This document shows positions 20,479-34,920 of a stretch of DNA of 64,000 nucleotides, piece after piece; positions within the stretch are counted from its first letter, which is position 1; each line of letters opens with the position of its first letter. Source of the DNA: Aquabacterium sp. Its GTDB lineage: Bacteria > Pseudomonadota > Gammaproteobacteria > Burkholderiales > Burkholderiaceae_C. The position numbers and the translations under genes are program-made. The stretch covers positions 1 through 64,000 of the forward strand of contig NZ_JACRAH010000036.1 in NCBI RefSeq assembly GCF_016234775.1, read 5' to 3'. The notes beneath the pieces are model-generated. The model was not told where the DNA came from and ran no database searches. It was given only the letters and a program-made list of their open reading frames with translations.

Positions 20479-20995
20479 TGAGTTGCCTCAGCAGGGGTTC
20501 GATTTCATTGACCAGCACGTCCGGCGTGATGGGGCCGATGTGCTTGTGGCGGATCACGCCCGCCTTGTCGATGATGAAGGTCTCGGGCACACCATAGACG
20601 CCGAAGTCGATGCCGATGCGGCCCTCATGATCGAACAAGGATTCAACATAAGGGTTGCCGCCATCACGCAGCCAGGCCAGGCCATCCGGGCGCTCGTCCT
20701 TGTAGTTCAGGCCATAGATGGGCACGACGTTGCGGCGCGCGAATTCAACCAGCACAGGGTGCTCCTGCCTGCAGGCGCCACACCACGATGCCCACACATT
20801 GAGCATCCAGACCTTGCCCAGCAGGTCTTCCTTACGCAGGCTGCGGCTGGTGTCGCTCAAGGCGGGCAGATTGAAGGCGGGCGCGGGCTTGCCGATCAGG
20901 GGGGAGGGGACTTCGCGCGGGTCACGTTTGAGGCCCAGGCCGAGGAACACGGCCAGCGTCAGGAAGATGCCCAGCGGCAAGAGGAAGCGTTTCAT
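20471..20995 (-). CDS. ccmG: thiol:disulfide protein CcmG/DsbE
   Basis: A 174-residue membrane-anchored thioredoxin-like protein: N-terminal anchor (LLPLGIFLTLAVFLGLGL), active site WASWCGACRQEHP (Cys72, Cys75) and the conserved GVPETFIIDKAG cis-Pro loop. It reduces CcmH or apocytochrome in the periplasm. It overlaps ccmF by 4 bases (ATGA). Confidence 0.95.
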   Translation of the reverse strand: MKRFLLPLGIFLTLAVFLGLGLKRDPREVPSPLIGKPAPAFNLPALSDTSRSLRKEDLLGKVWMLNVWASWCGACRQEHPVLVEFARRNVVPIYGLNYKDERPDGLAWLRDGGNPYVESLFDHEGRIGIDFGVYGVPETFIIDKAGVIRHKHIGPITPDVLVNEIEPLLRQLNG

Positions 20996-22935
20996 GCTGT
21001 GGCTCCTGTTGCTGTGGGTGTGGAGCGCTCAACCGGCTTGCGGACTCGGTAGCGTCGGTCACTGGCTGCCATCATGCCGCCGATGGCCATGATCAGGCAG
21101 CCTCCCCAGATCCAGTCCACAAAAGGCTTGTGATAGACGCGGATGATCCACTCGCCCGTCTCCAGTTGTTCACCCATCGACACATACAGGTCACGCGTGA
21201 TGCCTGCATCAATGGCGGCTTCGGTCATGGGGTTGCTCTGCACCTTGTAGATGCGCTTTTCGGGGTAGAGGGTGCTCACCGTCTTGCCATTGCGTGTGAT
21301 GCGCATCTCACCACGGGCTGCCACGAAGTTCGGGCCTTGCACCTCGCGCACATCCTGCAGCTGGAAGACATAGCCGCCCACCTCGGTGGTGTCGTGCAGC
21401 TTCATCTTCACATCGCGTTCTGTCTCGTAGGTGCGCACCATGCTGACGCCAAACGCAAAGGCAGCCACACCCAGGTGGGCCACGATCATGCCGGCCATGG
21501 CCAGAGGGATCTTGCGCCAGCCCTTTTCGTGCAGGTCCACCGCGATGGAGGCCACGATCCAGAAGGCCATCCACAAGCCGATGGAGGTGCCCAGCGAGAT
21601 CTTGCCGGCCAGCCATTGCGTGGCCAGCGCCGCCACGATCGACACCGCCAGCGCCCAGCGCAGTCGCACGGCCAGATCAGGCAGCTCGGCTTGCTTCCAG
21701 CGTGCCAGCGGGCCCACCCCCATCAGGAAGACCAGTGGCGTCATCAGCGGCACGAACACCGTGTCGAAGTAGGGTGGTCCCACCGAGATCTTGCCCAGCC
21801 CCATGGCATCGAGGAACAGCGGGTAGAGCGTGCCCAGCAGCACCGAGCCCATGGCCACGATCAACAGCACGTTATTGGCCAGCAGCATGGATTCTTTGGA
21901 GACCAGGCCGAAGCGCTGGCCCAGGCCCACGGTGGGCGCACGCCAGGCATACAAAGTGAGTGATGCGCCGATCACCACCACCAGGAAGGTCAGGATGAAC
22001 GCGCCTCGCAGTGGGTCGGTGGCAAAGGCATGGACGGACGACAGCACGCCCGAGCGGACCAGGAAGGTGCCCAGCAGCGACAGCGAGAACGCCGTGATGG
22101 CCAGCAGCACCGTCCAGTTCTTGAAGCTGCCGCGCTTCTCGGTCACGGCCAGCGAGTGCATCAAGGCCGTGCCAGCCAGCCAGGGCATGAAGGAGGCGTT
22201 TTCAACCGGATCCCAGAACCACCAGCCACCCCAGCCCAGCTCGTAATAGGCCCACACGCTGCCCAGCATGATGCCAATCGTCAGGCAGATCCAGGCGGCA
22301 ATCGTCCAGGGGCGCGTCCAGCGGGCCCAGGTGGCATCGAGTTGGCCGCCCAACAGGGCCGCAATGGCGAAGGCGAAGGCCACGGAGAAGCCCACATAGC
22401 CCATGTACAGCATGGGCGGGTGCGCCACCATGCCGGGGTCCTGCAGCAGCGGGTTCAGGTCTCGGCCATCCAGCGCCATGGGCAGCAGGCGCTCGAACGG
22501 GTTGGAGGTTGCCAGCATGAACAGCAGGAAGCCGAAGCTGATCATGCCCATCACGGCCAGGATGCGGGCCAGCACGGCTTGCGGCAGGTGCTGGCTGAAT
22601 TGCGCCACAGCCAGCATCCAGAAGGACAGCATCATCACCCACAGCAGCAGCGAGCCTTCGTGGCCACCCCAGACACCAGCGATGCGATAGGGCAGTGGCA
22701 GCGCGCTGTTGGAGTTGGAAGCCACGTACAGCACCGAAAAATCATGGCGGATGAAGCTGGCCATCAGGGCGATGAAGGCCGCGCCGATCAGCACGAAGAG
22801 CACGCGCGCCAGCGGTCGGGCCAGGCCCATCAGGGCGGCATCATCCTTGTAGGCGCCCCACAATGGCATGGCCGACAACAGCATGGAGACGGCGAGCGCC
22901 AGCACCAGCGCGATCTGGCCCAGTTCGGGAATCAT
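20992..22935 (-). CDS. ccmF: heme lyase CcmF
   Basis: A 647-residue polytopic membrane protein of normal length. The tryptophan-rich heme-handling WWD motif is [20 protein letters not shown], and conserved His residues lie in the flanking segments ([11 protein letters not shown] region, [11 protein letters not shown]). It performs heme ligation to CxxCH with CcmH and CcmI. It overlaps ccmE by 4 bases. Confidence 0.96.
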
Positions 22936-23393
22936 TTGTGCTCCTTGTGTTGGCCGGCTTCGATGCGGGCGTTGGCGTCGGCCGCGCGCTTGAGGGCTTC
23001 GGCGGCTTCGGGCGGCATGTAGTTCTCATCGTGCTTGGCCAGCACCTCTTGCGCAACGAACACGCCGTCCGTGCCCAGCTTGCCTTGCGCCACCACGCCT
23101 TTGCCTTCCTTGAACAGGTCGGGCAGGATGCCCTGATAGCGCACGGGCACCTTGCGGAAGGTGTCGGTCACCACGAAGTTGACCATCACGCCGTCTCGCG
23201 TCACCGAGCCTTTTTCAACCAGACCACCAAGGCGGAAGGTGCGGTCCAGCGGGGCCTCCTTGGCCACGATCTGCGAGGGCGTGAAGAAGAACACCAGGTT
23301 CTTCTGAAAGGCGTTGAGGACCAGTGCGGCCGCGATGCCCAGGATGGCCAGGCCACCCAGGATGAGCATCAGGCGCTTCTTGCGGGGTGTCAT
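22932..23393 (-). CDS. ccmE: heme chaperone CcmE
   Basis: A 153-residue membrane-anchored OB-fold protein. The start is the ATG at 23393 ([14 protein letters not shown]); the track extension upstream runs into ccmD. The covalent heme ligand is the His in [13 protein letters not shown]. It carries heme from CcmABCD to CcmF. Confidence 0.95.
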
Positions 23394-23394
23394 C

Positions 23395-23577
23395 TTATGT
23401 ATCCTCTTGTTCGCTGCGGCTGGCCAGCTGGGCATGGCGCCAGGCCTGGCGTCGGCGATGGGTGGCCATCAGCGGCTCGACCAGCATGCACAGCAAGGTG
23501 ACGCCATAGGCGCCCCAGATGTACAGGCCGTAGCCGTCCATGGCGATGAAGTCGGAAAAGCTCTGCCATTGCGACAT
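23395..23577 (-). CDS. ccmD: heme exporter protein CcmD
   Basis: A 60-residue single-pass protein ([23 protein letters not shown] followed by a basic HRRRQAW tail), the size and layout of CcmD, between ccmC and ccmE. It stabilises the CcmC-CcmE heme complex. Confidence 0.92.
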
Positions 23578-23584
23578 GGTTCAT

Positions 23585-24343
23585 TCACTCCTGGCGACCG
23601 TTCTGATGACCATGGACGAGCGCTTGCACCCACTGGGTCTCGCTTTCGCGCTCCAGCACGATGGCCCGCGTGCGGGTGAAGACCACGGCAAAGGCGTAGG
23701 CCCAGAAGGCGATGGTCATGAGCAGCATGGCGGTGAGCATGGTCGAGGCCATGGTGGGGGCGGCCGTCATGCTGATGGACGCGCCCTGGTGCAAGGTATT
23801 CCACCAGCGCACCGAGAAATAGATGATGGGCACGTTGATGGCACCAACCAATGCAATCAGGGCGCCAGCGGCATCGGCACGGCGCGGGTCATCGATGGCT
23901 TCGACCAGGGCCATGTAGCCCAGGTACAGAAAGAGCAGGATCAGCTCGGAGGTGAGCCTGGCATCCCAGACCCACCAGGCGCCCCAGGTGGGTTTGCCCC
24001 AGAAAGCGCCGGTCCACAGCGCGATGAAGGTGAACAGGGCACCCGTGGGCGCAATCGCGCGGGCCAGCATGGAGGCCAGCCTCACCTTGAAGGCCCAGCC
24101 TGTGGCAGCCCAGAAGGCCATGGCCATGTACAGCACCATGGACATCCAGGCAGCAGGCACGTGGATGAAGATGATGCGGTAGGACTGACCTTGCTGAAAA
24201 TCCGTCGGCGCGACGATGAAGCCCATGTACAGGCCTGCCGCGCTCATCAACAGGCAGACGGCCCATAACCAGGGCATGAGGGCCCCGGCCAGGCGTTCGA
24301 ACTTCGAGGGCGCGGCGAAAGTGGTCCAGTTCAGCTTAGACAT
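23585..24343 (-). CDS. ccmC: heme ABC-type permease CcmC
   Basis: A 252-residue, six-helix protein with the heme-presenting WWD motif GKPTWGAWWVWDARLTSELILLFLY and conserved HVPAAW. It loads heme onto CcmE. It lies 7 bases before ccmD. Confidence 0.95.
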   Translation of the reverse strand: MSKLNWTTFAAPSKFERLAGALMPWLWAVCLLMSAAGLYMGFIVAPTDFQQGQSYRIIFIHVPAAWMSMVLYMAMAFWAATGWAFKVRLASMLARAIAPTGALFTFIALWTGAFWGKPTWGAWWVWDARLTSELILLFLYLGYMALVEAIDDPRRADAAGALIALVGAINVPIIYFSVRWWNTLHQGASISMTAAPTMASTMLTAMLLMTIAFWAYAFAVVFTRTRAIVLERESETQWVQALVHGHQNGRQE

Positions 24344-24346
24344 CCA

Positions 24347-25003
24347 TCAATCCAGTGCAATCTTGAGCGCAGCGGCGGTCGCCCAGGGGGCGCCCAACAA
24401 GGTCAGTAGCAACAGCGCACCTAGCAGGGACAAGTGGCCTTCCGGCGAGAGCCCCGCAGAGACCGCCACCACGGCCCCCGCCCCGAAAATCAGCACGGGC
24501 ACGGCCAGTGGCAGCACCAGCAGCACGATCAGCATGCCACCGCTGCGCAGGCCCAGCGTCAGGGCCGCGCCCACGCCACCCAGCAGGCTGAGGACCGGCG
24601 TGCCCAGCAGGAGGCTGAGCACGAGGGTGGCCAATTGTCCTCCTTGCAGGTCGAACAGCAGGCCCAGTACGGGCGATGCCAGCACCAGGGGCAGGCCATT
24701 GATGCTCCAGTGCGCCATGGCCTTGGCCAGGGTGAGGCCCGGCAGTGACTGGCCAGACAGCAGCATCTGCTCCAGGCTGCCATCTGCAAAGTCCGATCCA
24801 TACAGGCTGCCCAGGGACAGCAGCGAGGCCAGCAGTGCACACACCCACACCACGCCAGGGGCGATGGTGCGCAGCGTCTGGGGTTCCGGTCCCACACCCA
24901 GGGGGAACAGGCTGGCCGCCACGATGAAGAACACCAGGGGCAGCAGGGCCTCCACCCGGCGGCGCATGGCCAGCTTCCAGTCTCGCAGGATCAAAGGCCA
25001 CAT
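24347..25003 (-). CDS. ccmB: heme exporter permease CcmB
   Basis: About 218 residues, six hydrophobic segments, with LILRDWKLAMRRRVEALLPLVFF and the SLYGSDFADGSLEQMLLSG motif of CcmB. The ATG at 25003 follows the ccmA stop; the track TTG at 25012 would overlap it. Confidence 0.92.
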   Translation of the reverse strand: MWPLILRDWKLAMRRRVEALLPLVFFIVAASLFPLGVGPEPQTLRTIAPGVVWVCALLASLLSLGSLYGSDFADGSLEQMLLSGQSLPGLTLAKAMAHWSINGLPLVLASPVLGLLFDLQGGQLATLVLSLLLGTPVLSLLGGVGAALTLGLRSGGMLIVLLVLPLAVPVLIFGAGAVVAVSAGLSPEGHLSLLGALLLLTLLGAPWATAAALKIALD

Positions 25004-25008
25004 GCTGC

Positions 25009-25602
25009 TCAACCCTTCCGCACCAGACTGAGGTCCAGCTCGATGGCCCCAGGCAGGGACAGCGCCTGGTGACTGGTCAGGATCACGGCGCCCCCGTTCT
25101 GACAGTGCTGCTGGATCAACTTGTTGAGCGTGGTGATGCCTTGATCGTCCAACGCGTCAAAAGGTTCGTCCAGGATCCAGAGCTTGCTGGAGGCAGACAG
25201 ACACAGCCGAGCCAGGGCCACCCTGCGCTTCTGCCCCTGTGACAAGGTACGCACAGGCGAAAGCCGTTGCCTGTGCACACCCATGTGGGTCAGCGCCTCG
25301 GTGCAGGTCTGATCGTCAAAGGGCAGATCGTGCAGGCGCAGCAGGAAGCTCAGAGCTTCGATGGCGTTGAGGTCGTCCTTGAGCCCATGCTGGTGACCGA
25401 TGTAGGCCAGGGGCACGGGGCGGTCGATCTGGCCGTCGGCGGCTTGTGACAAACCCGCCAGCAGCCGCAAGAGGCTGGTCTTGCCTTGCCCATTGGGCCC
25501 GCGCACCCACAGCAGCTGGCCAGGCATGACCGCCATGTGCAGATGTGCAAAAAGCAGCCGACCACCGCGCCGACAGGCCAGATCCTGGGCGTGCAGGTGC
25601 AC
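25009..25602 (-). CDS. ccmA: heme exporter ATPase CcmA
   Basis: A small ABC ATPase with Walker A GPNGQGKTSLL, signature LSQGQKRRVALAR and Walker B LWILDEPFDALD. I place the start at the GTG at 25602 (VHLHAQDLACRRGG), giving 197 residues, the family size, and starting just after the stop of the preceding barrel gene. The track start (25701) would bury ~33 codons in that gene. No strong ribosome site is visible, so translation may be coupled to the upstream gene. Confidence 0.9.
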   Translation of the reverse strand: MHLHAQDLACRRGGRLLFAHLHMAVMPGQLLWVRGPNGQGKTSLLRLLAGLSQAADGQIDRPVPLAYIGHQHGLKDDLNAIEALSFLLRLHDLPFDDQTCTEALTHMGVHRQRLSPVRTLSQGQKRRVALARLCLSASSKLWILDEPFDALDDQGITTLNKLIQQHCQNGGAVILTSHQALSLPGAIELDLSLVRKG

Positions 25603-25612
25603 CGGAGTGTGA

Positions 25613-28099
25613 TCAGTAGTCGTAGCGGTAGCCAAGGAAGTAGGTGTAGCGGGTGCTTTGGTCGTTGTTGGCCACGCCTTCGGTGCGCGTGTAATCCACA
25701 TTCAGGTTGGATTCCAGCGTGACGGAGGGCCGAGGCTTGAATGATGCCTTCAAACCGGGGCCCCATGCTACCGTGGTGATGTTCAGTCCCGTTGTGGTGT
25801 CCTGGCTGATGTTGCGTTGCCAGCGCAGACCGGGCTCCAGCTGCCAGGTATCTGTCAGTGGCGTCATGTTGTTGTAGTTGAGCATGTAGGTTTTGATCTG
25901 CTTACCCCGCATCAACGAAACGGTGAACACATTCGTGTCGCGTGCCGAGTACAGGTTGGAGCCGATGGCCAGCAGGCTCAAGGTCTTGGACAGACCGCTG
26001 GCGGCCTGCCCTTGCGGCAAGACGGCGTTGGGGGCGATGGCGCCTGTGCGATTGAAATCGAGTGTGGCACCGGTCTGCCATTGCGGCGAAACCGGCGTCG
26101 TGACGGACAGCATCGAGTGTGTCCAGTAAGACGTGTTGGCGCGTACCAGTTCCCTCAACTGATCGACGGTGTAGCCCCGGTTCTTCAGATCGGTGATGGT
26201 TTGAGGGATGATGCCCGCGTCCGTGAACTCCTGGTACTGGAAGAACAAGGTCTGGCTGAGCGATGCGGGCGCCAGGCTGCGGCGCTCATAGGTCGCCAGG
26301 ACCGTCGTGTTGTCCTCCGCCGTGTAAGTGCCCTGCAGGCTCACCACGTTGATCTTCTTGAAGATGACGTCGTAGTCCGTGGAGGCCATCAATGACGAGC
26401 TCTGCGTGAAGTAACGCAGGTCGGCGCCCGTTGCGCGACGGTCCACCTCGCCATCGATGTTGCGCTGCAGGACGAACAGGGAGGCACCCATATTAGGCGT
26501 GAGCGCATCGGCGTCAATCGAGGTGCCGAAGAACTGCCGTTTGGCTGCACCCAGCTTGTCCGTCGGTTGGCCTGCCGCGGCCGATACCTTCCACTTGGGC
26601 CTGAAAGCGTAGCTGCCTGAGGCGCCGTCATAGCGGCCTTCGCCGCCCCACATGGCAGATTGGCGACCCAGTCTGCCACGCAAGCCATTCTTGAGCCCCT
26701 GGTAGTCGAAGTAGGCGGCGTTCAGTCGGTTGCGGTCGCGGGACTTGCCCTTGAGTTGGGCATCGCTGAGCATGTTGTAGTCGAACTGATCGCGGAACAC
26801 CAGTTTGATGTCACGGTCAGCGTCGCGGGAGCGCCAGGTGGTGTCGACGTTGGTGGACAGCAGGCGCTGATCGGTCGTGCTGATGGGCGCCTTGCTCCGG
26901 TTGTTGATCTCGTCCGCTGACAGCAGCGTGCCATCCGTGTCTCGCACGGCTTGTGTGGCCGTGGTGGACTTGCCGCCGTAGTAGTACTGAGAGATAGAGC
27001 CCGTGGTGGTGATCGCGCCTTCCGGTGTCTTGATGGACTCGATGGTGGGCACCAGCTTCAGATCGGCAGGCTGTATCCCGGCCAACAAGCCTTTGACACG
27101 CTCTGCGCCAGGCCCGCTGGGGTATTGCTTGAGATAGGATTCGAACTCCGCCTGCGCCTTGGCCTGTTCGCCCTGAGACAGCCGCACCATGCCCAGCAAC
27201 TCCTGCGCATCCGGCGTGACGGCGGTGGCCGGCAGATCGAGCAACTGGTTGAGCAACCTGATGGCTTCTTCCGGCTTCTGTTGTTCGTAGGCCTGGCGCG
27301 ATTGATCCAGCAGGTCGCGGGCTTGCTGATCGGCGGTGGCAGCGGGCGCTGTCGCCTGGCCTGGCGCTGATGCTTTGCTGGCAGTGGCGTCGCCCAGCTT
27401 GACAATCACCGCGGCGGGAAAGCGCGACAGTTGTTTCATCGCCGCTTCCGCCTCTGCCAGGGTGCTGAAATAGCCCAGATCCATTTCGTGGACCTGTTTG
27501 CCGTCCACCACCCGGCGAGCCGTGAACACCTGGTAGTTCTGCAGTGATTGCGGGATGGGCGCATCGATTTCCAGCTTGGGGTCAGCCGAACGAGCCAGCG
27601 CGATCACGTAGCGCTGACTGGGCATCCGCTCTTCCTGTGCTTTACCGGTGATGGGCTTGACGGCCGAGCCCAGACCCTCGAGCACGACTTCGATGCTGCG
27701 GTCGCCCTTGCCGGCGCGCACCTTGAAGTTGCCGGCCTGGCTGAACGAGATCACCAGGCGGCGGTTGATGTCGTCGAGCTTGTCCGTGCGAACGGGCTCG
27801 TCGGAGATGGTGATGACAGGCAGACCATCCACCTTGACGATACGGCGCTCGCCTGCCACGAAGCCCGGGTCGATATCGGTCAGACGAAGTTGGTAGTAGG
27901 CCTGGGTCAGGTCCCGGGTTCGCGACGCGGTGGTGCGCAGGACGCTCACTGGCGTGCTCAGGCGGATCTGCACGACGGCATGGTTGCCCTCTCGGCGCAA
28001 ATCAACCTCATCCAGCATTTCGGCGTGCAGCAGCGAACAGGCGGGGAGCGCAAGCAGGGTGGCCAGCCATCTGGCGCGGTGGGTGGACTTCATGGTCAT
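25613..28099 (-). CDS. large outer-membrane barrel with AMIN-like, SPOR-like and TPR N-terminal domains
   Basis: About 828 residues from the ATG at 28099 (signal peptide ending SLLHA). The N-terminal ~110 residues resemble an AMIN-like beta domain (VVQIRLSTPVSVLRT). A SPOR-like segment follows (RYVIALARS...MDLGYFSTLAEAEAAMKQL), then TPR-like helices (AYEQQKPEEAIRLLNQLLDL), then ~480 residues of alternating beta-strands rich in Arg, Tyr and Asp, ending YTYFLGYRYDY like an outer-membrane barrel. It lies 14 bases after the 29-heme cytochrome gene and 10 before ccmA. By position it is the best candidate for the pore that holds a multiheme cytochrome across the outer membrane, but it lacks obvious similarity to MtrB. 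Function is inferred from context. Confidence 0.7.
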   Translation of the reverse strand: MTMKSTHRARWLATLLALPACSLLHAEMLDEVDLRREGNHAVVQIRLSTPVSVLRTTASRTRDLTQAYYQLRLTDIDPGFVAGERRIVKVDGLPVITISDEPVRTDKLDDINRRLVISFSQAGNFKVRAGKGDRSIEVVLEGLGSAVKPITGKAQEERMPSQRYVIALARSADPKLEIDAPIPQSLQNYQVFTARRVVDGKQVHEMDLGYFSTLAEAEAAMKQLSRFPAAVIVKLGDATASKASAPGQATAPAATADQQARDLLDQSRQAYEQQKPEEAIRLLNQLLDLPATAVTPDAQELLGMVRLSQGEQAKAQAEFESYLKQYPSGPGAERVKGLLAGIQPADLKLVPTIESIKTPEGAITTTGSISQYYYGGKSTTATQAVRDTDGTLLSADEINNRSKAPISTTDQRLLSTNVDTTWRSRDADRDIKLVFRDQFDYNMLSDAQLKGKSRDRNRLNAAYFDYQGLKNGLRGRLGRQSAMWGGEGRYDGASGSYAFRPKWKVSAAAGQPTDKLGAAKRQFFGTSIDADALTPNMGASLFVLQRNIDGEVDRRATGADLRYFTQSSSLMASTDYDVIFKKINVVSLQGTYTAEDNTTVLATYERRSLAPASLSQTLFFQYQEFTDAGIIPQTITDLKNRGYTVDQLRELVRANTSYWTHSMLSVTTPVSPQWQTGATLDFNRTGAIAPNAVLPQGQAASGLSKTLSLLAIGSNLYSARDTNVFTVSLMRGKQIKTYMLNYNNMTPLTDTWQLEPGLRWQRNISQDTTTGLNITTVAWGPGLKASFKPRPSVTLESNLNVDYTRTEGVANNDQSTRYTYFLGYRYDY

Positions 28100-28113: not shown

Positions 28114-30591
28114 TCAGTCCCAGTTGCGATAGGTGTTGCCTTTGTTGCCCAGAGGCCGATGGCAACCGGATTGAGAGCAATCGGTGACACCTGTTCTTTG
28201 CTGGTGTGTCAGCGACTTGCGTTCCATGGAGCCCTGGTAGGCGGTGCCGGCGTTATGGCAGGCATAGCACCAGCCCGAGCCACTGCCCATGCTGTTGTTG
28301 TGGTTCATCACGGCGGTGCCGAAACCGCCCGGGTTGGTGCTGGTGTGACACGCCTTGCAGTCCATGTTGACCCCGTTGAGCAACTGCGCTTCAGGGATGT
28401 GGTTGTTGGGCTTGGCGGTGGCACCCCAGCCCGCATGCGCTGGCGTGTGGCAGGTCTTGCAAGACTGCGCGCTCATGGCAGTGTGATTGGTGGTTACGCT
28501 GGTAGCCCAGGCTTGCTGGGACTTGTGGCAGCTGTCGCACTTCACGCCCCCGACCTGGAGGGGGATGTGGTTGCCGGGCTTGCCGGTAGCCGTGCTGCCG
28601 TTGTGGCAGTTGTCGCAGGTGCCCGTGCCCACGGCATTGGTCGGTGCGTGGGTGTAGACCACGTTGCTCCATGACGCGGTGGACTTGTGACAGGACTCGC
28701 AGCCGCTGCTGATGCCCGCATGCACGGCATTGTTGGGCTTGCTGGTCAGGCCATAGGCGGCGCTCAAGTGACAGGTCGAGCATTGGCCAACGATGCTGAC
28801 GTTGGCGTGGAAGCGGCCCGGGCTCCAGCTGCTGTAGCCACTCTTGTGGCAGGTGTCGCAATTGGTGATGGCAGCGCCCGCCAGCGATTGGTAGGCGATG
28901 TGGTTGGATGGGCGGCCGTCTGCAGGTGGAAAGGCCCCGGAGTGGCAGGTCGAGCAGGCGTTCGTGACGGTGACCTGGGTGTGGTTCCACTTGGTAGGCG
29001 TCCAGCCGGTGGTGTTGTGGCAGCTGTAGCAGTTGGCGGTCACCGGGATGTGGCTGCCAGGCTTGCCCGTGGTTGCACTGCCGTTATGACAGCTAGCGCA
29101 TTGCGTGGTCGAATTGAACAGGCTGTGGTTCACCTTGGCGCCTGCCCAGCGGCTGGTGTTGTGGCAGGACTCGCAGCCGCCGGTCACGGTGCTGTGCACG
29201 GCGTTGGCTGGCTTGCTGGTCAGTCCATAGACTGCTGTCAGGTGGCACGAAGCACATTGCCCGACGATGCTGACGTTGGCGTGGAAGCGGCCGGAGTTCC
29301 AGCTGCTGTAGCCACTCTTGTGGCAGGTGTCGCAGTTGGTGATGGCGGCACCCGCCAGCGATTGATAGGGGATGTGGTTGGAGGGGCGCCCGTCAGCCGG
29401 CGGGAAGGCACCCGAGTGGCAGGTCGAGCAGGCATTTGTGACGGTGACCTGCGTGTGGTTCCACTTGGTGGGCGTCCAGCCCGTGGTGTTGTGGCAGCTG
29501 TAGCAATTGGCGGTCACGGGGATGTGGCTGCCGGACTTGCCTGTGGCCGCACTGCCGTTGTGGCAGCTTGCACACTGTGTGCTCGCATTGAACAGGCTGT
29601 GGTTCACCTTGGCCCCAGCCCAGCCACTGGTTTTGTGGCAGGACTCGCAACCGCCTGTGACCGTGCTGTGCGTGGCCGTGTTGGGCTTGCTGGTCAGCCC
29701 ATAGGCCGACGTCAGGTGGCACGATGCACATTGCCCGACGATGCTGACATTGGCGTGGAAGCGGCCCGGGTTCCAGCTGCTGTAGCCACCCTTGTGGCAG
29801 GTGTCGCAGTTGGTGATGGCGGCACCCGCCAGCGATTGATATGGGATGTGGTTGAACGGGCGGCCATTGGCTGGCGCGAACGAGCCGGAGTGGCAGGTCG
29901 AGCAGGTACCCGCGACCAGCGTTTGTGTGTGATTCCAGTTGGTGGGCTTCCAGCTGTTGACACTGTGGCAGCTGATGCAATTGGCCGTGACAGGGATGTG
30001 GTTGGCTGCCTTACCGCTGGCGGTCGCGCCGTTATGGCAGGACGCGCAGTTGGTGCTGCTGTTGAAGCCACGGTGATCGGGCCTGGCGCCGTTCCAGTTG
30101 CGGGTGTTGTGGCAGGAGTCGCAACTGGCGCGCGTGGCGATGTGGTTGCCGGATTTGCCTTGGGTGCGGACCCCATCGTGACAGGTTTGGCACGCCGTGC
30201 CGGGCGGGATGCCTGTGGTGTGACTGAAGCGCGGATTGCTGAAGGACTGCGTGCCGTGGCAGCTGTCGCAGCCCTGCATCGACGAGTTCGTCGGAATGTG
30301 GGTGGGCGGTATCACCACATTGGATCTGGCCTGACGCGAGCCCTGTGTGTGGCAGGTCTGGCAGTCTCTGGGGGTGCCTCTGAAGATGCCGTTGGTGTGG
30401 CAGCTTTCGCAGCGCTGGGTGGCGTGGGCGCCATTCAGCGGGAACCCGGTTTTGAAATGATCGAACTTGCTGTTGGCTGCGCTCTGGGCTTCAGCCCGCC
30501 CCGGCACCACGCCCAGCACCACGCACATGACCAGCAGCAGCAAGAACGCTGCCTCGCGGTACCAGGTGTGAGCGTGCGGGGAGGGTGTCAT
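28114..30591 (-). CDS. 29-heme giant cytochrome c with tandem hexaheme modules
   Basis: 825 residues with signal peptide (LLLLVMCVVLGVVPGRAEA). I count 28 CxxCH motifs and one C-terminal CSQSGCH (CX4CH) variant, so up to 29 c-type hemes. Residues ~179-652 are three near-identical 158-residue modules, each with six CxxCH (NCASCH, CISCH/CYSCH, CSTCH, CDTCH, CASCH/CSTCH, CESCH). Many extra His residues (NHIPYQSLAG, RFHANVS, WNHTQ) could be distal ligands. It is probably a periplasmic-to-surface electron wire. It follows the 24-heme gene and overlaps it by ~100 bases; a palindromic operator candidate lies 42 bases upstream of its start. Redox partners and substrate are unknown; extracellular metal or another insoluble donor or acceptor is the leading idea. 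Confidence 0.9.
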   Translation of the reverse strand: MTPSPHAHTWYREAAFLLLLVMCVVLGVVPGRAEAQSAANSKFDHFKTGFPLNGAHATQRCESCHTNGIFRGTPRDCQTCHTQGSRQARSNVVIPPTHIPTNSSMQGCDSCHGTQSFSNPRFSHTTGIPPGTACQTCHDGVRTQGKSGNHIATRASCDSCHNTRNWNGARPDHRGFNSSTNCASCHNGATASGKAANHIPVTANCISCHSVNSWKPTNWNHTQTLVAGTCSTCHSGSFAPANGRPFNHIPYQSLAGAAITNCDTCHKGGYSSWNPGRFHANVSIVGQCASCHLTSAYGLTSKPNTATHSTVTGGCESCHKTSGWAGAKVNHSLFNASTQCASCHNGSAATGKSGSHIPVTANCYSCHNTTGWTPTKWNHTQVTVTNACSTCHSGAFPPADGRPSNHIPYQSLAGAAITNCDTCHKSGYSSWNSGRFHANVSIVGQCASCHLTAVYGLTSKPANAVHSTVTGGCESCHNTSRWAGAKVNHSLFNSTTQCASCHNGSATTGKPGSHIPVTANCYSCHNTTGWTPTKWNHTQVTVTNACSTCHSGAFPPADGRPSNHIAYQSLAGAAITNCDTCHKSGYSSWSPGRFHANVSIVGQCSTCHLSAAYGLTSKPNNAVHAGISSGCESCHKSTASWSNVVYTHAPTNAVGTGTCDNCHNGSTATGKPGNHIPLQVGGVKCDSCHKSQQAWATSVTTNHTAMSAQSCKTCHTPAHAGWGATAKPNNHIPEAQLLNGVNMDCKACHTSTNPGGFGTAVMNHNNSMGSGSGWCYACHNAGTAYQGSMERKSLTHQQRTGVTDCSQSGCHRPLGNKGNTYRNWD
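28636..30057 (-). repeat. three tandem 474-bp in-frame repeats (158-residue hexaheme module)
   Basis: The spacing is exactly 474 bases: the conserved xTTGGCGTGGAAGCGG stretch recurs at 28801, 29275 and 29749. The encoded modules are nearly identical in protein, especially the two nearer the C-terminus, while the DNA differs mostly at third codon positions. Partial, more diverged units flank both ends. Confidence 0.93.
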
Positions 30592-32479
30592 GAGTCAACG
30601 GCGGGGACGACCTACTTCTACTGCCAACTGCAAAATGTGAGAACTGCACATTTATTGTACGGTATCCGTCCTGCTGTAGCACCGAGTGTTTTTCAAGTTG
30701 TTTCCAGTCTTTTGTGCTGTGGCACTGCTCGCAGCGCCCGCCAAACTGGCCGTCATGGGTGTCGTCCTTCTGGTGGCAGTCGATGCAGCGTTGGCCTGTT
30801 TCGGCAACCGCCTTGCCGGCGGGGGCTGCCTGGGTGTGACACGCTTCACACTTCACGGTGCGGTGGGCGCCGGTTAGTGGGTAGTTTGTTTGCCGGGCAT
30901 GGTTGAAGTCCCAGGATTTCCAGTGACGGGTGTTGTGGCAACTCTCGCAACGGGTACCCAAACGGGCCTTGTGCTGGTCGTCTTTTCGGTGGCAGGCGAC
31001 GCATTCGCGCTGCGCGTCCTTGAAACGCTTTGTTACGTGGCAATCTTTGCATTCAACACGTCCATGGCTACCGGTTAAGGGGAACCGTGTCTTGCCGTGG
31101 TCGAACACGGTCGCCTTCCAGTCCTTGTCGCCATGGCATTGCTCACATTGCTGGCCCTGTGTGCCTTCGTGCTTGTCGTCCTTCTTGTGGCAGGCGAAGC
31201 AGCTCATCGCGGTGTTGCGGAAGGCTTTCAGGTCGCCCTTGTGGCAGTCGCTGCACCTGATCTGGCTGCGAGCGTGGGCATTGCGCAAGGCAAAGCGGGT
31301 CTTGTCGTGGTCGAAGCGGCCCGCCGTGGCGCGCCAGTCGCGTTCGGAGTGGCAATCCACGCAGGTCTTGCCCAGTGTGCCCTCGTGCTTGTCATCCTTT
31401 TTGTGGCACGAGAAGCAGTCCATGGGCGCCTCCTTGTACATGGCGCTCTTGTGGCAGTCCGAGCAGCTCGCCTTGCCGTGCTTGCCCAGCAGCGGGAAGC
31501 GCGTTTTGTCGTGGTCGAAACGAGGCGGGTCTTTCCAGCCGCTTTCGCTGTGGCAGGAGGCGCAGTCCTTGCCCAGACTTTCCTTGTGCTTGTCGTCCTG
31601 CCTGTGGCAATCCCAGCATGGCTCGGGCAGCTTCTGTTTGTACAGCGGGCCGGTGTGGCAGTCGGTGCAGGCGGTCTTGCGGTGCTTGCCGCGCAAGGCG
31701 TAAGAGGTGTCGGTGTCGTGGTTGAAGTCGATGGCCTTCCATAACTTGGCGCCGTGGCAGGTCTCGCACTTGCCGCCGAACTGGCCTTTGTGCTCGTCTT
31801 CCTTCTTGTGGCAAGCAACGCAGGTCTTGGGCGTGTCCTTGAAGCGGCCATTGGCGTGGCAGTCATCGCACTTGGCCTTGGTGGCGTGCTTGTCTTCCAG
31901 CGCGAAGTGGGTCTTCTTGCCGTGGTCGAAGTCGGTGGTTTTCCAGCCGATTTCGCTGTGGCAGTCCGAGCACTTGCCGCCAATGCCGCCTTTGTGTGCA
32001 TCGTCTTTCTTGTGGCAGCTCAGGCATTCGCCGGCGGCTTGCCAGTACTTCTTGCTGCTGGTGTGGCACTTGTCGCAGGCCACATCCAGGTGTTTGGCCT
32101 TAAGCAGGTAATCCGTCTGTTTGTGGTCAAAGCGTTTGGTGTCGAGCGCCACGATACGGGCCTGGCGCCCCTTGTGGTCGGTGTGGCAGTTGCGGCAGGT
32201 GGCGTCGGGCTTCTGGCGGCCATGGAAGCCTGTACGGGCCTTCATGTCCTGGCCGACCTCCTTGTGGCAGACCACGCACTGGGCGTCCTGGCCCTTTGGG
32301 TTGAAGCGCACATGGCAGTTGGCGCATTCATGTTCGACCTTGGCGTGGCCGCTGATGACATCACCCGGCGCCAGCACCGATTCGATCGATTGCGCATGGG
32401 CGGGCCCGCCCAGTACCAGCAGGAGCAAGGCAAGCAGCAGCAGGCCCAGGTGCAGCCAGCGTTTTGGATTCCGGGGCAT
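30491..32479 (-). CDS. 24-heme cytochrome c with three-heme repeats
   Basis: About 662 residues starting at the ATG at 32479 (track TTG is two codons earlier), with signal peptide (LLLLALLLLVLGGPAHA). I count 24 CxxCH motifs. From heme 4 on, seven triplets of ~70 residues recur: CxxCH, then CxxCHKKDDxHKG, then CxxCHSExxWK, then FDHxKTxFxLxGKH. Lys and His are plentiful, unlike the Ser/Thr-rich next cytochrome. It is probably periplasmic, taking electrons between the cytochrome b and the 29-heme protein. After the last heme (CEQCHSTKDWKQLEK) ~55 residues have no heme pattern and run across the next gene's operator and start, which looks like a lost stop codon. It lies 27 bases after cytochrome b. 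Confidence 0.88.
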   Translation of the reverse strand: MPRNPKRWLHLGLLLLALLLLVLGGPAHAQSIESVLAPGDVISGHAKVEHECANCHVRFNPKGQDAQCVVCHKEVGQDMKARTGFHGRQKPDATCRNCHTDHKGRQARIVALDTKRFDHKQTDYLLKAKHLDVACDKCHTSSKKYWQAAGECLSCHKKDDAHKGGIGGKCSDCHSEIGWKTTDFDHGKKTHFALEDKHATKAKCDDCHANGRFKDTPKTCVACHKKEDEHKGQFGGKCETCHGAKLWKAIDFNHDTDTSYALRGKHRKTACTDCHTGPLYKQKLPEPCWDCHRQDDKHKESLGKDCASCHSESGWKDPPRFDHDKTRFPLLGKHGKASCSDCHKSAMYKEAPMDCFSCHKKDDKHEGTLGKTCVDCHSERDWRATAGRFDHDKTRFALRNAHARSQIRCSDCHKGDLKAFRNTAMSCFACHKKDDKHEGTQGQQCEQCHGDKDWKATVFDHGKTRFPLTGSHGRVECKDCHVTKRFKDAQRECVACHRKDDQHKARLGTRCESCHNTRHWKSWDFNHARQTNYPLTGAHRTVKCEACHTQAAPAGKAVAETGQRCIDCHQKDDTHDGQFGGRCEQCHSTKDWKQLEKHSVLQQDGYRTINVQFSHFAVGSRSRSSPPLTHDTLPARSHLVPRGSVLAAAGHVRGAGRGAGAG
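30633..30653. promoter_or_regulatory. palindromic operator candidate upstream of the 29-heme cytochrome
   Basis: Perfect 7-bp inverted repeat AAATGTG-N7-CACATTT, 42 bases upstream of the 30591 start. The same left arm, the same N7 spacing and CACA recur at 33502-33522 in front of the cytochrome b gene. The shared layout suggests one regulator; its identity is unknown. The site resembles a CRP box but is one base shorter. Confidence 0.5.
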
Positions 32480-32506
32480 CACCAAGGCCTGATCAGGTCG
32501 AGCGGA

Positions 32507-33430
32507 TCAATACGCATGCACCGCCACGACATGGAAGATCGCGCACAGCACCATGATCCACACGAAGGGCACATGCGCCACGTGCCACATGGAAAACAAG
32601 CGCTCGAAGGTCTGGAACTGGGCGGCACGCTGCACCGACAAGGCGTAGCTGTCGATCTGCTCGCAGCAGCTGCGGTAGCGGGTGAGCGCTTGTTGCTTGC
32701 TCCACTTCTTGTCGGCCACCGCCTGCTTGATCAACTGTTTGACGTCGGCCTTGCATTGCTGGGCCACGCGTTGGCGCTGGATGGGCAGCACGAACAAACG
32801 CCACAGGTGCCGGGCTCCCTGATTGGCGCCATCAACCAGGGTTTGCCGCTCGAAGGCCTGCATGGCCTGCAGCACGCCGGGCATGCTCTGGAACTGGGTG
32901 TCTGCGGCCTGTTGTTCCTGGCCCATGGCGCTACGCAGGCTGGCGAGGGTGGCTTTTTCGCCGCGCAGATCGGCATGCAGGCGAACATACAGGAAGCGCC
33001 CGATCACCCCGCTGAGTGCCACGATGATCATGGCAAACAGCGCCACGGCGGCGTTGGTGGAGCCAATGTGGAAGGTGGAGTGCAGCAGGATCAGCCAGGG
33101 CCCCAGGATGCCCAGCACCATGTGGGCCGCAAACCAGTACTTCGAGGCGCCCCAGCTGTAGGTGACGCGCCAGCGCTTGCGCAGGGGGTAGGTGAAAAGC
33201 AGCAGCATCGAGACACCGCCCGCCACGCCCAGCCAGTAGCCCGTTTGCGACCAGGAAGTGAACCAGCCTTGGGCCGAGATCCACCACGCCGCCAGCGTCA
33301 GCGCCGTGATGGACAGGTAGATGAGCAGGTCAGTGCGCAAGCGCGCCTGAACCTGCGGTGCCTGTTGCCCGAGCGTGCTGCGCCCAGGTGGTGTGGCGCC
33401 AGGGGTGACGGTGGAGGTTGTGGCGCTCAT
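32507..33430 (-). CDS. cytochrome b-type membrane electron carrier
   Basis: A 307-residue integral membrane protein. Hydrophobic segments lie at ~35-55, ~65-83, ~98-117, ~125-145 and ~280-303. Paired His residues in helices (AAHMVLGILGPWLILLHSTFH and MWHVAHVPFVWIMVLCAIFHVVAVHAY) fit two b-hemes, as in ferric-reductase-like or NapC-independent quinol cytochromes. A long charged loop with two Cys (RSCCEQ) separates them. It is the first gene of the cytochrome/Ccm run and probably links the quinone pool or the divergent flavoprotein to the multiheme cytochromes. Confidence 0.75.
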   Translation of the reverse strand: MSATTSTVTPGATPPGRSTLGQQAPQVQARLRTDLLIYLSITALTLAAWWISAQGWFTSWSQTGYWLGVAGGVSMLLLFTYPLRKRWRVTYSWGASKYWFAAHMVLGILGPWLILLHSTFHIGSTNAAVALFAMIIVALSGVIGRFLYVRLHADLRGEKATLASLRSAMGQEQQAADTQFQSMPGVLQAMQAFERQTLVDGANQGARHLWRLFVLPIQRQRVAQQCKADVKQLIKQAVADKKWSKQQALTRYRSCCEQIDSYALSVQRAAQFQTFERLFSMWHVAHVPFVWIMVLCAIFHVVAVHAY

Positions 33431-33522: not shown

Positions 33523-33606
33523 TTAACATCGCTTACATGAAATCCGGTTGAAGCCATCATCCGGATCGAGTCTGCTTCGGTGTGTTGTTGCCTGCCTTGT
33601 TGTCCC

Positions 33607-34920
33607 ATGTTGATTCCTGCTTACCTGACTTTGTATGGTGGTGTTGCTGCCCTGGCCGTGGGTGTGCACCTGGTGCTGAGGCAACGCCGTCGCAAGGCGG
33701 ATGCGGCTGCGCTGGCGGAGGCCAGCCAGGCTGGCCTGAACCAGCCCGCCTCTCTGCACCCGGTGGTCGATCCCACTCGGTGTTTTGGCTCCGGCGCCTG
33801 CGTCAAGGCCTGCCCGGAGGAGGCGCTGGGCATCGTGGACGGCAAGGCCACACTGGTGAATGCGTCTGCGTGCATCGGGCATGGGGCCTGTGTCACGGCC
33901 TGCCCGAGTCAGGCCTTGTCACTGGTTTTTGGCACCTCGGAGCGCGGGGTCGAGATTCCCGTGCTGAGCAAGGAGTTCGAGACCAATGTGCGCGGCATCT
34001 TCATTGCTGGCGAACTGGGCGGCATGGGGCTGATCCGCAAGACCACGGAGCAAGGTCGCCAGGCCATGAACGGCGTGCGCCAGCGTGTGGCAGAAAGCCG
34101 CGCCGATGCGCCGCTGGATGTGGTCATCGTGGGCTCTGGCCCGGCCGGCATCTCGGCGGGCTTGAGCGCCTTGCAGCACAAGCTGCGCTACCGCATCCTG
34201 GAGCAGGAGGATTCGTTGGGGGGCACGGTGTACCACTACCCGCGCAAGAAGGTGGTGATGACGGCGCCAGCCAAACTGGACCTGGTGGGCAGCATGAGCC
34301 TGGGCACCGAGGTGGCCAAGGAGGCCTTGCTGAGCTTCTGGCACGACGTGGTCGGCAAGACCGGCCTGAGCTTCCAGTTCGGCGAGCGCCTGGAAGGGAT
34401 CGACCCGCAAGCGGACGGCAGCTTCATCGTGCGCAGCAGCAAGGGCGAGCACCACACCAAAGCCGTGTTGCTTGCCTTGGGCCGACGGGGCTCGCCCCGC
34501 AAGCTGGATGTACCCGGTGAGGAGCGCAGCAAGGTGGTGTACCGCCTGATCGACGCCGAGCAATACCGTGGCCAGCGCATGCTGGTGGTGGGCGGGGGCG
34601 ACAGCGCCATGGAGGCCGTCATCGACCTGGCGCAACAACCTGGCTCGCAGGTGACGCTGTCCTACCGCAGTCAGGCCTTTTCGCGCGTGAAGGAGAAAAA
34701 TCGCCAGCAGCTCAAGCAGCTGCAGGACGAGGGCCGCATCCTGGTGTGGCTGCAATCACAGGTGCTGCGCATTGAAGACGATCACGTGGTGCTGCGCACC
34801 CAGGATGGCGAGCAGACCTTGCGCAATGACGGCGTGATCATTTGCGCAGGCGGCGTGCTGCCGACGCCTTTGTTGCAGGCCATCGGCATACGCATGGAGA
34901 CCAAGTACGGCACCGCCTGA
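33607..34920 (+). CDS. membrane-anchored ferredoxin-like / FAD-NAD(P) oxidoreductase fusion
   Basis: A 437-residue protein from the ATG at 33607: N-terminal membrane helix (YLTLYGGVAALAVGVHLVL), a two-cluster ferredoxin-like segment (59-100) and a thioredoxin-reductase-like flavoprotein with two dinucleotide folds (VIVGSGPAGISAG and MLVVGGGDSAMEAV). It lacks the CxxC of true thioredoxin reductases. Each Fe-S motif has three Cys before CP but the second Cys is replaced: CFGSGACVKACP (Ser62) and CIGHGACVTACP (His92). It probably moves electrons between NAD(P)H and a membrane carrier. It is divergent from the cytochrome operon across a shared operator candidate, which suggests a joint role. Confidence 0.8.
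   Translation: MLIPAYLTLYGGVAALAVGVHLVLRQRRRKADAAALAEASQAGLNQPASLHPVVDPTRCFGSGACVKACPEEALGIVDGKATLVNASACIGHGACVTACPSQALSLVFGTSERGVEIPVLSKEFETNVRGIFIAGELGGMGLIRKTTEQGRQAMNGVRQRVAESRADAPLDVVIVGSGPAGISAGLSALQHKLRYRILEQEDSLGGTVYHYPRKKVVMTAPAKLDLVGSMSLGTEVAKEALLSFWHDVVGKTGLSFQFGERLEGIDPQADGSFIVRSSKGEHHTKAVLLALGRRGSPRKLDVPGEERSKVVYRLIDAEQYRGQRMLVVGGGDSAMEAVIDLAQQPGSQVTLSYRSQAFSRVKEKNRQQLKQLQDEGRILVWLQSQVLRIEDDHVVLRTQDGEQTLRNDGVIICAGGVLPTPLLQAIGIRMETKYGTA

Follow-up and report, generated by a model that had tools for sequence, protein, structure and literature searches.

How a cytochrome chain made of near-repeated heme-binding modules is used, and how it grows or shrinks during evolution, are the questions raised by a gene in a 64,000-nucleotide stretch of Aquabacterium sp. 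DNA (hereafter the window). The gene, the modules and caps into which its product can be divided, and the neighboring genes are as follows.

28114-30591, minus strand: outer multiheme cytochrome of PCC3, predicted extracellular; 825 aa, 28 CxxCH and one CX4CH
30058-30468, minus strand: N-terminal cap (aa 42-178); five CxxCH, with a spacing of 16-31-26-23-25 that is constant in six same-genus genomes
29584-30057, minus strand: hexaheme module 1 (aa 179-336)
29110-29583, minus strand: hexaheme module 2, interior (aa 337-494); interior modules are those duplicated in relatives
28636-29109, minus strand: hexaheme module 3, last (aa 495-652); positional orthologue in six species
28117-28635, minus strand: C-terminal cap (aa 653-825); five CxxCH and the invariant CX4CH, terminus ...YRNWD
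30491-32485, minus strand: PCC3 periplasmic multiheme cytochrome; 24 CxxCH, C-terminus uncertain
32507-33430, minus strand: PCC3 inner-membrane protein; 307 aa, two WX3HX13H and SGXXG (family definition in PMC5566968)
25613-28180, minus strand: predicted PCC3 porin; TPR region at the N-terminus followed by an amphipathic-strand domain that ends in an aromatic Tyr
25009-25701, minus strand: ccmA
24347-25012, minus strand: ccmB
23585-24343, minus strand: ccmC
22932-23435, minus strand: ccmE
20992-22935, minus strand: ccmF
33580-34920, plus strand: FAD/NAD(P) oxidoreductase carrying two [4Fe-4S] motifs; divergently oriented and conserved next to the cluster

A hexaheme array in a PCC3 cluster

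The original prediction placed three tandem hexaheme modules at 28636-30057, and these coordinates proved exact: a 158-residue unit is repeated three times in one frame on the minus strand with an exact period of 474 bp, and each unit contains six CxxCH motifs at intervals of 23-25-32-26-27-25. Period 474 scores 1784 in TRF, indicating that the repeat is not due to chance, and diverged part-modules border the array on its flanks. The copies had been described as almost the same in protein, which overstates their similarity, because amino acid identity is only 66-80% (79, 80, and 66% for module pairs 1-2, 2-3, and 1-3, respectively, with 81, 80, and 71% identity in DNA). The 825-aa protein matches Pfam Cytochrome_C7 with an E value of 4.6e-47, and its N-terminus forms a helix resembling a signal peptide.

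The gene encodes the multiheme outer subunit (predicted extracellular) of a PCC3 porin-cytochrome cluster. PCC3 was described by He et al. in 2017 (PMC5566968) and surveyed by Hoover et al. in 2023 (PMC10734462); in the accessible parts of both papers it consists, like the window cluster, of a porin, an extracellular multiheme cytochrome, a periplasmic cytochrome with 21-27 hemes, and an inner-membrane protein with WX3HX13H and SGXXG motifs, and Aquabacterium sp. NJ1 is named there among the carriers. In the window, the genes for the inner-membrane protein, the 24-heme cytochrome, the outer cytochrome, the porin, and ccmABCEF follow one another in this order on one strand. The adjacent genes with 28 and 24 CxxCH fit the outer and periplasmic PCC3 pair, whose locations are putative. 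The inner-membrane protein has WX3HX13H at residues 99 and 282 and SGXXG at residue 140, and these motifs were found in the window and in 93 of 95 relatives. The neighbor set is kept in the relatives wherever the contig extends far enough. An aromatic C-terminal residue in 25 of 30 porin homologues and a strand-like alternation of 0.37 (0.20 for shuffled sequences, SD 0.04) are suggestive only of a barrel-like region, and a family search of the porin gave no porin-family match, the MtrB family included.

Several further features of the neighborhood were observed. The ccmABCEF genes (20992-25701) stand directly after the porin gene on the same strand, and ccmA adjoins the cluster in 24 distinct loci, counting the relatives and the window; this adjacency suggests joint expression of the wire and the heme-attachment machinery. 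The FAD oxidoreductase gene (33580-34920) is found beside the cluster in many relatives at approximately 56-94% identity and, with its two [4Fe-4S] motifs, is a candidate for connecting the cluster with the NAD(P)H pool. The ORF of the periplasmic cytochrome overlaps that of the outer cytochrome by 101 bp (30491-30591), and its true end is uncertain because the length of the C-terminal tail differs among relatives.

Module number and diheme register

The outer cytochrome is present in 7 of 42 genomes of the genus. In six of them, including that of the window, it has 28, 28, 34, 34, 40, and 40 CxxCH motifs, which correspond to 3, 3, 4, 4, 5, and 5 modules, and the cap spacings are equal in all six (16-31-26-23-25 in the N-terminal cap and 28-26-26-34-30 in the C-terminal cap). 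The seventh has 46 CxxCH motifs and an eight-heme repeat, and a same-family relative (G183) has ten modules of related type with 70 CxxCH motifs. The module had been proposed to be covalent and extendable, and relatives with three, four, or five modules, or ten of related type, agree with this. Because related species have different whole module numbers between fixed ends, these results suggest that evolution lengthens or shortens the heme wire one complete module at a time. Across Burkholderiales, modules have 2, 4, 6, or 8 hemes, and similar caps enclose other modules, namely, diheme (23-24 or 23-25), tetraheme (26-26-23-28), and hexaheme (26-24-25-32-26-20) ones.

The number of hemes follows a simpler unit than the module. 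All 33 complete homologues sharing the C-terminal cap, a set that is not phylogenetically independent, have an even number of CxxCH motifs (14-70) and one CX4CH. With hemes numbered from the N-terminus and hemes 5 to n-3 considered, Trp followed 426 of the 446 odd-numbered hemes but none of the 413 with even numbers. The alternation also holds in additional diheme-type arrays, most of which are cut by contig ends; three exceptions with Trp at even positions all lie in one 24-CxxCH protein (L153), which is probably a periplasmic subunit. The even counts and the Trp at odd hemes indicate that the elementary unit is a diheme and that the hexaheme module is three dihemes. In the proteins compared, changes in length thus preserve the diheme register, and the array never slips. 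A stricter rule, by which the heme number is 4 modulo 6, is true within the genus but fails across the order (20, 24, 26, and 38 hemes), and we therefore replaced it with the even, diheme rule. Each module has exactly twelve invariant His residues (83 module pairs), six in CxxCH motifs and six elsewhere, with no other conserved His; twelve is the number expected if the six hemes are all bis-His ligated, as judged from the alignment.

Other arrangements were found in more distant relatives. Three order-level relatives (L146, L147, and L148) have an identical spacing pattern with 62 CxxCH motifs, and this frozen arrangement shows that the length of the outer cytochrome is not labile everywhere. 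A second type of outer cytochrome adjoins the same periplasmic subunit in L103, L105, L107, and L113; it is built of heptaheme modules of approximately 267 aa (spacing 28-29-34-36-40-44-56) in up to approximately 12 copies and reaches 90-97 or more CxxCH motifs, which exceeds the 85 reported for PCC3 (PMC5566968). The Trp diheme register is absent from these heptaheme-type cytochromes, and we treated them as a separate type. Contigs of the relatives often break within the outer cytochrome gene (L053/L054, L060/L061, L063/L064, and many others), so short-read assemblies probably under-report how many modules it has. L086, L131, and L142 contain exact internal repeats of 466, 439, and 158 bp, respectively.

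Selection and homogenization among the copies

Amplification of the module, as had been predicted, is supported, and purifying selection on it is supported by the substitution rates. The dN/dS values (NG86) among the three modules of the window gene are 0.27, 0.20, and 0.30; the range is 0.20-0.32 between copies and 0.06-0.21 between positional orthologues. In a maximum-likelihood tree of the modules, the last modules of six species, which rank as number 3, 4, or 5 in their own proteins, form one group with a support of 98/100. The modules of the window are therefore not recent copies, since the last one clusters with its counterparts at the end of the array in five other species. The tree thereby rules out a recent homogenization of all three window modules, which we had considered, and only a weak form confined to silent sites was kept.

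The gene conversion proposed in the original prediction holds in part. We compared codons at same-amino-acid sites between two modules of one gene and between modules at the corresponding two positions in different genomes. The penultimate and last modules share 0.755 of silent codons within a gene versus 0.672 across genomes (p=0.003), and the first and penultimate modules share 0.704 versus 0.637 (p=0.0014); because penultimate modules are not strictly orthologous in every species, the test is somewhat weakened. The first and last modules show little excess (0.659 versus 0.637, p=0.049) despite common codon usage. Meanwhile, dN is 0.03-0.17 between positional orthologues and 0.14-0.26 between paralogues of the window gene, at similar dS. 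These results indicate that selection holds the amino acids by position while the silent sites of neighbors are partly homogenized, and they point to some partial gene conversion between neighboring modules.

The same data could be read as the trace of unequal crossing-over alone, with module number and register being neutral by-products and with no selection on length or stacking. Recombination between homologous repeats would keep the register automatically, the silent sites of neighboring modules are homogenized, and the tree contains species-specific duplications of interior modules (m2/m3 in L048 and m2/m3 in L049). However, every CxxCH and distal His is kept, dN/dS is 0.06-0.32, and the end modules are distinct. 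These observations indicate that the modules themselves are under selection; for module number this is unproven, and since recombination alone would keep the register, so is selection on the heme stack. We regard the neutral explanation as possible, with the balance leaning against it.

A second explanation concerns function: the outer cytochrome may be mainly an electron store, or capacitor, in which extra modules serve to hold more electrons and reach is of secondary importance. Large multiheme cytochromes have been suggested to act as capacitors (GSU1996, PMC10138318; PCC3, PMC10734462), and the module number of the outer cytochrome varies while its periplasmic partner is constant, having 24 CxxCH motifs in almost every full-length protein (27 in L055 and L151). 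By contrast, the strict diheme register and the constant caps suggest an ordered chain. Storage as the main role therefore seems rather unlikely to us, and the two functions are not exclusive. Finally, that the three modules result from collapsed or false repeats in the assembly is very improbable even though many relatives' contigs end inside the gene and the assembly containing the window is a draft of 68 contigs, because the longest exact repeat within the gene is 51 bp and fits well inside a short read, the modules differ by approximately 20-29% in DNA, a relative (G019) likewise has three modules, and whole-module variation also occurs on multi-megabase contigs (G009, G131, and G048).

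The outer cytochrome as a covalent heme chain

We conclude that the outer cytochrome of the PCC3 conduit is a covalent chain of bis-His c-type hemes and most likely a wire to a donor or acceptor outside the cell (probability roughly 0.7). Covalent multiheme wires are already known from GSU1996 (PMC10138318) and from PCC3 cytochromes (PMC5566968). GSU1996, the dodecaheme cytochrome of Geobacter, also consists of tandem domains joined covalently, and its four triheme domains make up one linear heme wire; however, it is periplasmic and has one His-Met heme in each domain, whereas the window protein is diheme-based with all hemes bis-His according to the count of conserved His. The NCBIfam model nanowire_3heme (TIGR04257) scored 38.9 against a cut-off of 40, and the repeat unit of the window protein has two or six hemes. 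The OmcS filament of Geobacter likewise has six hemes per repeating unit and a wire role, but its separate subunits polymerize non-covalently, whereas the window modules lie in one chain; OmcS was absent from the matches of the module profile. MtrCAB, MtoAB, and PioAB share the logic of a porin with multiheme cytochromes, and the module profile matches MtrA (6r2q_A) at an E value of 1e-10 with successive CxxCH motifs aligned, a score affected by large composition bias. The window system differs from them in having far more hemes (24 and 28, versus decaheme MtrA-type proteins) and no match to the MtrB porin family. In the family-model search, the DmsE model (119.9; cut-off 192.2) and the OmcA/MtrC model (69.8; cut-off 209.3) stayed below their cut-offs, and phmmer of the outer cytochrome against the PDB gave no match.

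AlphaFold2 models of the whole protein (20 homologues; pLDDT 35.9) and of a module pair (83 rows; pLDDT 52.5, pTM 0.26) were too poor for heme distances, and heme spacing is therefore inferred. Neighboring hemes in MtrA alternate between parallel and perpendicular packing with edge distances of 3.9-6.5 Å, and its ten hemes span 80 Å (PMC7198977); the alternating arrangement is general among multiheme cytochromes (PMC12954529). If the pitch equaled that of MtrA, a hexaheme module would add approximately 50 Å, and the window protein would extend to approximately 250 Å.

A mechanism can be proposed on this basis. The first diheme of the N-terminal cap (30334-30468) shares homology with the unit that is repeated in the periplasmic cytochrome, with 40-49% identity and an E value of 4e-12 in a comparison of two sequences. 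This homology suggests that the N-terminal end is where the protein meets its periplasmic partner, with which the cap would make contact at the porin. Interior modules would then be added or removed by unequal crossing-over between modules, and only whole dihemes would be tolerated, such that the alternating parallel and T-shaped heme stack is preserved. We tentatively extend this to PCC3-type wires in general, which may change length only by whole dihemes between conserved caps because the stack must stay in phase. As for the reaction served, the putative function usually proposed is Fe(II) oxidation, and no demonstrated function of PCC3 is reported in PMC12442390, PMC10734462, or PMC13386937.

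Much of this picture is already published, including the repeats of PCC3 cytochromes, heme numbers that are large and variable, proposed roles as wire or capacitor, and an extended reach. The accessible parts of PMC5566968 and PMC10734462 describe repeat units that have one or more hemes, low residues-per-heme ratios, and a range of heme counts; those parts do not describe whole-module steps, the diheme register, end-module orthology, or the adjacent ccm genes. None of the open-licence main texts searched described whole-module steps between fixed caps, end-module orthology, or the diheme register, and the whole-module steps, fixed caps, and register look new.

Most known heme wires come in a single length or polymerize endlessly, which makes it difficult to test how electron transfer along such a chain depends on its length. 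Here, close relatives have three, four, or five modules of the same type enclosed by identical ends, and ten are found in a more distant relative, which makes a natural length series. If length does change in fixed steps, the PCC3 family would be a natural series for measuring conduction against wire length, and the unbroken diheme register would be a testable design rule for multiheme proteins.
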